From Aquibaculum arenosum (GTDB lineage: Bacteria > Pseudomonadota > Alphaproteobacteria > Kiloniellales > DSM-21159), in contig NZ_JARHUD010000010.1 of NCBI RefSeq assembly GCF_029222965.1, forward strand, positions 1 through 64,000: DNA of 64,000 nucleotides. Direction: 5' to 3'. How positions within the stretch are numbered: position 1 is the first letter of the stretch; each line of letters begins with the position of its first letter. Below, one piece after another: positions 44,374-46,274 of the stretch. Position numbers and translations under genes: made by a program. Under the pieces are notes generated by a model. It was given only the letters and a program-made list of their open reading frames with translations. It had not been told where the DNA came from and searched no databases.

Positions 44374-44449
44374 GTTTCCTTGACCCATGAGTGGCAGGGC
44401 CGGCCAGGCACTGCTGCGGTCAAGGGCGCCGCGCAATCAGGGGGCAGGC

Positions 44450-45739
44450 ATGCTGCAGAACTACTTCAAGCTGGCTGAGCACGGCACCAACGTGCGCACC
44501 GAGGTGCTGGCCGGACTCACAACCTTCCTGACGATGGCCTACATCACCATCGTTAACCCGGCGATCCTGTCCGATACCGGCATGGATTTCGGTGCGGTCT
44601 TCGTGGCCACCTGTGTGGCGGCGGCCATCGGCACGCTGATCATGGGGCTCTATGCCAACTATCCCATCGCCCTGGCGCCGGGTATGGGACTGAACGCCTA
44701 TTTCACCTACGGCGTCGTCCTCGGCATGGGCTATGAGTGGCAGGTGGCGCTGGGCGCGATCTTCCTCTCGGCCATCCTCTTCATCATCATCTCGGTACTG
44801 CCGATCAGGGAATGGATCATCAACGCCATTCCCAAAGAGCTGAAAATGGCGATCTCGGCCGGCATCGGGCTCTTCCTGGCGATCATCGCGTTGAAGAATG
44901 CCGGCATCGTCGTTGATCACCCGGCCACATTGGTTTCGCTGGGTGACCTGACCGCCTGGCCGGCCATCTTGGCCATCGCCGGCTTCATCCTGATGGTCGC
45001 ACTGGATTCCCGCCGGATCCCCGGAGCGGTGGTGTTGGGCATTCTCGCCACCACGGCCGTGGGCGTGGGCCTGGGGGTCTCGCCCTTCCAGGGCATCATG
45101 GACACCCCGCCGGACCCCAGCCCGACCTTCCTCCAGCTCGACCTGGCAGGGGCGTTCCAGATCGGTCTGGTGACCATCGTGTTCACCTTCCTCTTCGTCG
45201 ATCTCTTCGATACCGCCGGCACCCTCGTGGGCGTGGCGCATCGCGCCGGACTGCTGGATGCCCAGGGTCGGCTGCCGCGGCTGCGCAAGGCGCTGCTGGC
45301 CGATTCCTCGGCGTCGGCCTTCGGCGCCCTGCTCGGCACCTCGACCACCACCTCCTACATCGAAAGCGCCGCGGGAATTAAGGCGGGCGGTCGCACCGGC
45401 TTGACCGCCGTTGTCGTGGCCATTCTCTTCCTGCTGTGCCTTTTCTTCGCTCCGCTGGCCCAGACCGTGCCGGGCTATGCCACTGCACCGGCGCTGCTCT
45501 TCGTCGCCTGCCTCATGGCTCGCGGCCTGTCGGAGCTGAACTGGGAGGACCCGACGGTCTACGCGCCGGCCGTGGTGACGGCCTTTGCCATGCCAGTGAC
45601 CTACTCCATCGCCGACGGCATCGGCATCGGTTTCATCACCTACGCCGGCATCAAGATCGTCAGCGGCCGCTGGTCCGAATGCCCCTTGGCCGTCCTGGTC
45701 ATCGCCGTGCTCTTCGGCGTGAAGTTCGCCTTCCTGTAA
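44450..45739 (+). CDS. NCS2/AzgA-family purine permease
   Basis: A 429-residue AzgA-like nucleobase transporter with 12-14 membrane segments. The family signatures are present: GLTTFLTMAYITIVNPAIL near 22-40, ALAPGMGLNAYFTY near 76-89, and the conserved VDLFDTAGTLVGVA and GTSTTTSYIESAAGI blocks. Family members import adenine, guanine or hypoxanthine by proton symport. The ATG at 44450-44452 has GGGGGCAGG just upstream. A long folded leader precedes it, and a 13-bp hairpin follows its stop. Confidence 0.95.
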   Translation: MLQNYFKLAEHGTNVRTEVLAGLTTFLTMAYITIVNPAILSDTGMDFGAVFVATCVAAAIGTLIMGLYANYPIALAPGMGLNAYFTYGVVLGMGYEWQVALGAIFLSAILFIIISVLPIREWIINAIPKELKMAISAGIGLFLAIIALKNAGIVVDHPATLVSLGDLTAWPAILAIAGFILMVALDSRRIPGAVVLGILATTAVGVGLGVSPFQGIMDTPPDPSPTFLQLDLAGAFQIGLVTIVFTFLFVDLFDTAGTLVGVAHRAGLLDAQGRLPRLRKALLADSSASAFGALLGTSTTTSYIESAAGIKAGGRTGLTAVVVAILFLLCLFFAPLAQTVPGYATAPALLFVACLMARGLSELNWEDPTVYAPAVVTAFAMPVTYSIADGIGIGFITYAGIKIVSGRWSECPLAVLVIAVLFGVKFAFL

Positions 45740-45749
45740 AGGCAACAGC

Positions 45750-45782
45750 GGATCGCGCCCGGGCTCTTTCCGGGCGCGATCC
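45750..45782 (+). terminator. Strong hairpin after the purine permease, no U tract
   Basis: GGATCGCGCCCGG and CCGGGCGCGATCC form a perfect 13-bp stem with a seven-base loop, 10 bp after the permease stop. The sequence afterwards is not U-rich (AGCGCCGTT), so it is either a factor-assisted terminator or an mRNA 3'-end stabiliser. Confidence 0.5.
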
Positions 45783-45822
45783 AGCGCCGTTCCCGGCCAA
45801 TCGAGAATCGCGCAGAATCCGG

Positions 45823-45852
45823 GTGACGTCGCTCGGGGACTTCGGCTATAAA
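45823..45852 (+). promoter_or_regulatory. Sigma70-type promoter for the candidate small RNA
   Basis: GTGACG at 45823-45828 and TATAAA at 45847-45852 are separated by 18 bp; each matches five of six consensus bases. It points to a start near 45858-45860, at the head of a stem-loop series ending in an intrinsic terminator. Confidence 0.5.
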
Positions 45853-45857
45853 CCTAT

Positions 45858-46016
45858 GGCTGCGCGCGCCAACGTGTGCGTGCAGGGAGATGGCCCAAGC
45901 TCGTGGAGGAGCGCCCCACCTCCGGCCCGGTGAACGAAGGCTGGAGGGGCTACCAAAGCGATGGCGGAAGCTTCGCAGGCTGGCAGGTTCGCTTCTGGCG
46001 CACCTGCCATTTTTTT
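45858..46016 (+). ncRNA. Candidate free-standing small RNA (about 158 nt)
   Basis: Between convergent genes lies a complete transcription unit without an open reading frame of note. A promoter is at 45823-45852. A 9-bp hairpin UGCGCGCGC/GUGCGUGCA is at 45861-45884. A 9-bp hairpin CCUCCGGCC/GGCUGGAGG (45919-45947) has an 11-nt loop containing GUGAACGAA. A terminal hairpin UGGCAGGU/ACCUGCCA is followed by seven U. Length, isolation and terminator are those of a trans-acting sRNA. It is not recognisably 6S, SRP or tmRNA. Alternatively the terminator serves read-through from the purine permease. Confidence 0.45.
45981..46016 (+). terminator. Intrinsic terminator with seven-T run
   Basis: TGGCAGGT (45981-45988) pairs with ACCTGCCA (46002-46009), with an inner CGC/GCG extension, followed by seven T at 46010-46016. 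It works on the plus strand only, since no T run follows on the minus strand. It ends the candidate sRNA or permease read-through. Confidence 0.8.
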
Positions 46017-46028
46017 GCGTGCGAGCGC

Positions 46029-46274
46029 TCAGCCGGCGACCATGTCACGGAACGAGAAGAGTTCCAGTTCGACCAGCAGATAGATCACGCCCCAGACCAC
46101 GAAAGACAGCAGGGTTGTGGCGATCACCTTGCGCCAGAGCATGGGCTTTTCCGGCGCGCCAGGCTCGTGCCCCGGCTCCGGGTTTTCCACTGGCCGCACG
46201 CCCCAGGGCAGCACCATGAACAGCACCACCCACCAGACGCAGATAAAGACGACAAGGGCGTTGAGCCACGTCAT
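46029..46274 (-). CDS. DUF1467 family membrane protein
   Basis: An 81-residue protein with two helices (about residues 5-25 and 50-70) and a Pro/Glu-rich loop between them (VENPEPGHEPGAPEKP). It matches the DUF1467 family, small membrane proteins seen almost only in alphaproteobacteria, generally next to mce; no function is known. It lies 10 bp after the mce stop, at the end of the long minus-strand series. Confidence 0.85.
   Translation of the reverse strand: MTWLNALVVFICVWWVVLFMVLPWGVRPVENPEPGHEPGAPEKPMLWRKVIATTLLSFVVWGVIYLLVELELFSFRDMVAG

Follow-up and report, generated by a model that had tools for sequence, protein, structure and literature searches.

The window, the whole stretch of 64,000 nucleotides of Aquibaculum arenosum DNA analysed here, carries between an NCS2 permease gene and a DUF1467 gene what is, judged by its sequence and its relatives, a conserved sRNA gene. 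We consider it probable (roughly 80%) that its product is a stand-alone sRNA sponge that pairs with the sRNA MmgR and antagonises it. This reading was adopted because the core of the RNA is complementary to MmgR and the two RNAs change letters together across species; the antagonism is argued by analogy with the CrfA-SisA pair.

In the proposed mechanism, the linker between hairpins 1 and 2 of the window RNA would be presented for pairing, and would pair, probably on Hfq, with the anti-Shine-Dalgarno core of MmgR and the letters that follow (UUUCCUCCCU-ARACUYGGGCC). The duplex would occupy the stretch of MmgR that is used on mRNA targets and would lead to inactivation or decay of MmgR, so that its targets, for example carbon-storage and uptake genes, would be released. 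An hfq gene is present in the window's genome. MmgR and its relatives make up the alpha-r8 sRNAs, which are widespread in Alphaproteobacteria and tune PHB storage and uptake genes. If the proposal is correct, a dedicated RNA would hold MmgR in check in many lineages, and its genes would form a conserved, often syntenic sponge family.

Architecture and conservation of the locus

The transcription unit and its neighbours comprise the following features.

44387..45739, + strand: NCS2 permease gene (PF00860), conserved upstream neighbour, stop at 45739
45750..45782, + strand: separate 13-bp hairpin without a T run, directly past the permease stop
45823..45828, + strand: -35 element GTGACG, read directly from the letters
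45847..45852, + strand: -10 element TATAAA, read directly, after an 18-nt spacer from GTGACG
45860..45885, + strand: hairpin 1, 10 pairs, predicted fold
45892..45910, + strand: antisense core GGCCCAAG-CTCGT-GGAGGA, proposed active site of the sponge, from its complementarity to the MmgR core
45913..45950, + strand: hairpin 2 (middle hairpin), inner stem 45921-45945 with 9 pairs, predicted fold
45981..46016, + strand: intrinsic terminator TGGCAGGT...ACCTGCCA followed by seven T at 46010-46016, from letters and fold
46029..46274, - strand: DUF1467 gene (PF07330), conserved converging neighbour, end at 46029

The preliminary description had a non-coding sRNA, independently transcribed from the plus strand, in the 289-bp gap separating the two genes, and most of its structural claims were borne out. 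The gap runs from the permease stop to the DUF1467 end, the promoter GTGACG-N18-TATAAA is there to the letter, and the predicted fold gives the three hairpins that had been reported together with the seven-T run (hairpin 1, the middle hairpin and the terminator hairpin). The additional hairpin that had been noted between the permease and the RNA is the one at 45750-45782, at which the permease transcript would end; the other genome of the genus also has a hairpin there, with another sequence. Transcription of the window RNA would start near 45859-45860. The sequence and its conservation thus point to a stand-alone sRNA of about 157 nt with its own promoter and its own terminator, in agreement with the size and independence first proposed.

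We then asked what these features are worth by themselves. The fold of the expected RNA (from about 45860 to the last T at 46016) had an energy of -79.4 kcal/mol (z -2.27), and three of 200 shuffles were equally stable. Between 44000 and 47500 there were two terminator-like sites, including the one of the window RNA, and shuffles had 2.1 on average; the terminator alone is therefore not beyond chance. A strict sigma-70 promoter scan, with an E. coli-type consensus, found no site in this stretch. Rfam 15 gave no match at gathering score in the whole window, for SRP as for the other families, and the 6S RNA (RF00013) of this genome lies elsewhere (C1:395763-395922). Up to E 10, the region 45600-46150 showed three matches of chance level around the permease hairpin, all on the minus strand, and neither alpha-r8/MmgR (RF00519) nor alpha-r9 (RF02343) was among them; membership of both families was rejected on this ground. 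Nor is the alpha-r8 10-mer UUUCCUCCCU present in the RNA, which has part of its complement, GGAGGA. The window RNA itself matches no Rfam family. A coding role was also rejected: the other genome of the genus lacks the start codon of the 25-codon frame at 45856-45933 and has no equivalent of that frame, and the homologues inspected have no start codon at a normal distance past GGAGG. As the promoter scan and the terminator count were not beyond chance and Rfam was silent, conservation had to decide.

A DNA search of 58 genomes, including the window's own (G000), found the region at the same place in G001, the sole other genome of the genus among those searched, with 72% overall identity. The promoter there reads GTGACG-N17-TATAGA, and the 7-nt step from promoter to first stem is identical to that in the window, as are 19 core letters and the terminator stem. 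Six outer pairs of hairpin 1 are kept, one via a G-U to G-C change, and six inner pairs of hairpin 2 are kept with changes at two. The hairpins are hence found at the same places in this close relative, which had been set as a test beforehand. The middle loop, GUGAACGAA, which had been proposed as the seed, did not hold up: it is not kept even within the genus, where it is instead the linker GGCCCAAGCUCGUGGAGGA, between hairpins 1 and 2, that stays unchanged. Short matches of the DNA search in G004, G009 and G046 lay at a gene start or by a tRNA gene and are not homologues.

A covariance model built on the two sequences (R1) detected nothing beyond the genus in 61 genomes. An exact 18-mer scan of genome contigs gave 50 loci, with an R1 match only at a same-genus MAG (L021). 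It was the synteny with the permease that opened the search to a wider family. The NCS2 permease was found in 21 of the 59 genomes of the order, and an RNA bearing a variant of GGCCCRAGTYTRNGGAGGAA lay downstream of 16 of the 21 permeases fetched; in G010 the permease-linked RNA lies about 1.1 kb further on. The sequence-only model R2, built from these 16 permease-linked loci only, added ten more loci among the matches listed, so that the order has at least 26 homologous loci in at least 24 of the 59 genomes. A variant of the linker is the common feature of these 26 loci. On the stretch inspected, DUF1467 converges on 17 of them and permease sequence lies upstream of 17; nine are without a permease match there. 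Calling the unit an orphan, as was done at first, is thus misleading: permease and/or DUF1467 neighbours are kept in many genera, and the partner MmgR lies elsewhere in the genome. It is conservation that lifts the window RNA above chance.

Genus g6 has second sponge copies elsewhere in the genome (L115 in G006, L116 in G010), without a permease or DUF1467 match on the stretch inspected. The R2 matches L140 and L143-L147 were judged to be chance or MmgR antisense and were dropped. A further match, L132 (G025:C1:973176-973204), was dropped because it resembles the Shine-Dalgarno region of a small ORF. The ORF looks like one for a membrane protein, and the letters ahead of its start codon agree with antisense MmgR across the core, which makes it a likely mRNA target of MmgR.

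Proposed pairing with MmgR and covariation of the two RNAs

The conserved core, GGCCCAAG-N5-GGAGGA, is approximately the reverse complement of the MmgR core. In the window's genome, MmgR is found on a contig other than the window's (C1:130649-130729, minus strand, 56.4 bits to RF00519). An N-formylglutamate amidohydrolase gene, which PMC12559287 reports as the neighbour of alpha-r8 RNAs in most species, lies about 1.6 kb from it, beyond other reading frames. When R2 was run, its second strong matches in the order carried RF00519 above cut-off on the opposite strand in all 13 scanned among the matches listed, and class-wide the same was seen in 28 of 28 scanned among the matches listed. This match between sponge and MmgR was not built in, since R2 came from sponge loci only and the MmgR loci from RF00519. 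The pattern CCCAAG-N5-GGAGGA occurs exactly at three sites in the 3.49-Mb genome, namely the window RNA, the MmgR antisense and one other. With one mismatch allowed there are 44 sites, against 35 for the reversed control; the short pattern alone therefore proves nothing. The net binding energy of window RNA and MmgR was -23.4 kcal/mol, a value reached by none of 300 shuffles and the third among 1635 equal-sized segments of the window.

The two RNAs also go together across genomes. MmgR was over the cut-off in all 24 sponge genomes, and none of the 19 genomes without MmgR gave a sponge among the matches listed; of the 40 genomes with MmgR over the cut-off, 16 had no sponge among the matches listed. 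Of the 23 columns that run from the second U of the MmgR 10-mer into the 5' arm of the terminator, all but one form pairs in 18 or more of the 22 genomes. The weak columns are one inside the 10-mer, pairing in 13 of 22 genomes, and the first U of the 10-mer, pairing in eight of 22. Out of 23 core letters, 15 match antisense MmgR in the window's genome, 16 in G001, G003 and G008, and 18-22 in each of the remaining 18. Within the genus of the window it is the central part of the core that has diverged, and the duplex is therefore interrupted there, with 8 bp and 6 bp around a partly mismatched centre. Extended complementarity to the alpha-r8 core of its own genome was thus found for the window RNA, in this interrupted form. 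In predicted folds the core was only modestly more accessible than the remainder (mean unpaired 0.47 versus 0.39 elsewhere), and it is not part of any fixed structure. Over the 26 order loci, the mean z of its 3' flank was -2.25.

For covariation we tabulated 22 of the 24 sponge genomes with one sponge copy each, leaving out G023 and G032 and the second copies of G006 and G010, and took as the MmgR stretch of each genome the best match to the consensus inside its RF00519 locus. At offset -4 from GGAGG the combinations were U-A in 12 genomes, C-G in seven, U-G in three and C-A in none. At offset -8 they were A-U in 15, G-C in six, G-U in one and A-C in none. Non-pairing combinations at these two offsets were consequently present in no genome. 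A third varying column showed A-U in 12, G-U in eight and G-C in two. Four families (f1, f5, f7, f8) have genomes of the C-G type at offset -4, and f7 has both types at offset -8. Such compensatory changes, a sign of pairing kept by selection, were accordingly observed in the table.

Own sponge-MmgR pairs had a mean energy of -51.7 kcal/mol versus -48.5 kcal/mol for foreign pairs. None of 20000 free permutations was as good as the own pairing, a value inflated by relatedness, and 406 of 20000 within-family permutations were. Relatedness is not taken into account in the Fisher values either, and the support lies in switches that recur in several families and within one. The own MmgR was the best of the 22 only for G000, G002 and G003, and the worst for G046; the core of G000 binds its own MmgR slightly better than the other 21 despite its diverged middle.

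We extended the comparison to the class with 16 of 21 loci from other orders, giving 38 pairs. Listed as sponge letter and antisense-MmgR letter, offset -8 had A/A 21, G/G 16, G/A 1 and A/G 0, and offset -4 had T/T 27, C/C 8, T/C 3 and C/T 0. Five loci (L250, L255, L275, L276, L278) were left out, either because no own MmgR had been chosen or, for L255, because of a match to RF00519 on the opposite strand. Possible two-way transcription at loci of other orders leaves the 22 pairs of the order unaffected. The pairing of the window RNA family with MmgR is hence supported, at the level of sequence, by matching changes in two unlinked genes.

The evidence from base pairs is symmetric, and the same pairing could serve the opposite direction, with the window RNA acting on targets of its own and MmgR being its antagonist or decay trigger. 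For Caulobacter, PMC12559287 reports that full-length CrfA is in turn lowered by SisA. We regard this direction as unlikely: besides a terminator, the most conserved stretch of the RNA is the one that matches MmgR, and the rest varies. Moreover, CrfA itself was first taken as an mRNA-pairing sRNA and was then shown to act through SisA, by the same source.

Probable strand of transcription and loci in other orders

A locus antisense to MmgR could also be a diverged minus-strand paralogue of MmgR, for which a likeness to antisense MmgR would be trivial. Within the order, the strand signals spoke against this. A sense terminator was found at 24 of the 26 sponge loci versus none of 13 MmgR control loci, and a loose TGAC-N16..21-TA pattern lay upstream of the core at 21 of the 26 versus none of the 13. 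By strand, terminators at the 26 loci were sense only at 17, on both strands at seven, on neither at two and antisense only at none, against antisense only at all 13 true MmgR loci. The two loci missed by the terminator test, L062 and L125, have a hairpin visible by eye without a qualifying T run. In the window, promoter and terminator are both on the plus strand only, as the preliminary description had stated for the terminator, and the minus strand has no terminator beside the core.

Similar sponge-like loci are present in other orders of the class. We picked 21 of them by eye from 60, which were themselves chosen from at least 119 genomes with R2 matches. On the 800-bp stretch, the end of the same permease was seen in eight and DUF1467 in one. 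A sense terminator was present at 18 of the 21, and a terminator-like hairpin was found also on the opposite strand at 19, so that these loci could in part be transcribed both ways. Nineteen such loci were scanned with RF00519; 14 of them gave an opposite-strand match of 31-49 bits, two at or over its cut-off (L255 with 49.1 and L229 with 41.0), and within the order the loci of G004 and G009 are weak opposite-strand matches of 28 bits. These observations speak for a paralogue of MmgR. Set against them are the sense terminators just described and, for the window itself, the strand of its signals and the absence of RF00519 in 45600-46150 up to E 10, and we consider a paralogue very improbable. 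The least probable reading of all, ordinary intergenic DNA in which chance hairpins accompany a terminator serving the permease transcript, would suit the common terminator-like sites and the missing strict sigma-70 site but is opposed by conservation across genera and families, by the trans-covariation, by the nine loci without a permease match and by the separate hairpin directly past the permease.

In L229, L230, L231, L235, L241, L252, L260 and others, hairpin 1 with its A-rich 5' end mirrors the MmgR terminator. These mirror-like loci look as if the sponge gene were an inverted copy of the 3' half of MmgR, and some might be transcribed both ways.

Relation to CrfA, alpha-r9 and other known systems

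Among open-licence papers, CrfA of Caulobacter crescentus was the only sponge of alpha-r8 sRNAs that we found. CrfA was identified by experiment as a sponge of the alpha-r8 sRNAs SisA-D; pairing of its residues G49-C63 with the 10-mer of SisA depends on Hfq and is accompanied by decay of both RNAs, and its loss causes a growth defect under fluctuating nutrients (PMC12559287). Like CrfA in that account, the window RNA appears to be a stand-alone sRNA that pairs with the alpha-r8 10-mer core, from a similarly placed site (about +33 to +51, compared with residues 49-63 of CrfA). It differs in three respects. In the window RNA family about 23 columns pair in most genomes, reaching the 5' arm of the MmgR terminator; the site is a linker between hairpins, whereas that of CrfA is a stem-loop; and the gene family keeps its NCS2 permease and/or DUF1467 neighbours. 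By this analogy the window RNA should work like CrfA, whether or not it descends from CrfA or alpha-r9. In two Caulobacteraceae genomes R2 detected no RNA of this kind, which is a weak test as no MmgR antisense was among the loci inspected there either.

Relative to MmgR itself (alpha-r8, RF00519, suhB), the core of the window RNA is the same stretch read from the other strand; the RNA, antisense to MmgR and without a match to its model, is a partner and not a member of that family. QrrX is a sponge of the Vibrio Qrr sRNAs (named in PMC12559287). By description, it resembles the proposed sponge in being directed against a family of sibling sRNAs, and differs in bacterial class and target family.

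One locus from another order, L271 (G397:C16:125050-125850, minus 273-445), matches the whole alpha-r9 model RF02343 on the strand of the sponge, with the core inside the match. Its score of 35.3 bits (E 0.01) is below the cut-off of 45 bits, and the window RNA itself lacks an alpha-r9 match up to E 10. Going by this match, alpha-r9 may be a named branch of the sponge family. The alpha-r9 RNAs are known from Rhizobiales and, to our knowledge, have no assigned function; our literature search for their function found none. If the sponge proposal is correct, it would suggest one.

A wider picture, which we offer tentatively and think rather doubtful as a whole, is that of a class-wide sponge family with alpha-r9 as a named branch and without descent from CrfA. 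It would have arisen by inverted duplication of the 3' half of MmgR (core and terminator), would have co-evolved with MmgR letter by letter since, and would often lie beside the NCS2 permease across several orders of Alphaproteobacteria. A dedicated sponge might also explain why MmgR is conserved past the 10-mer into its terminator stem. The sponge-MmgR pair offers a case of trans-covariation testable by point mutations in the two RNAs.

According to PMC12542648 and PMC8844928, the MmgR of Sinorhizobium limits PHB storage and is itself under repression by PhaR/AniA. A gene for PhaR (PF07879) is present in the window's genome. Upstream of its MmgR (L180, G000:C1:127500-133500; letters in L097) we observed two boxes of TGC-GCA type, TTGCATTGCAGC and CTGCATTGCGGCA, which resemble the PhaR/AniA site of S. 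meliloti mmgR as given in PMC12542648. Similar boxes were seen upstream of several other MmgR loci inspected.
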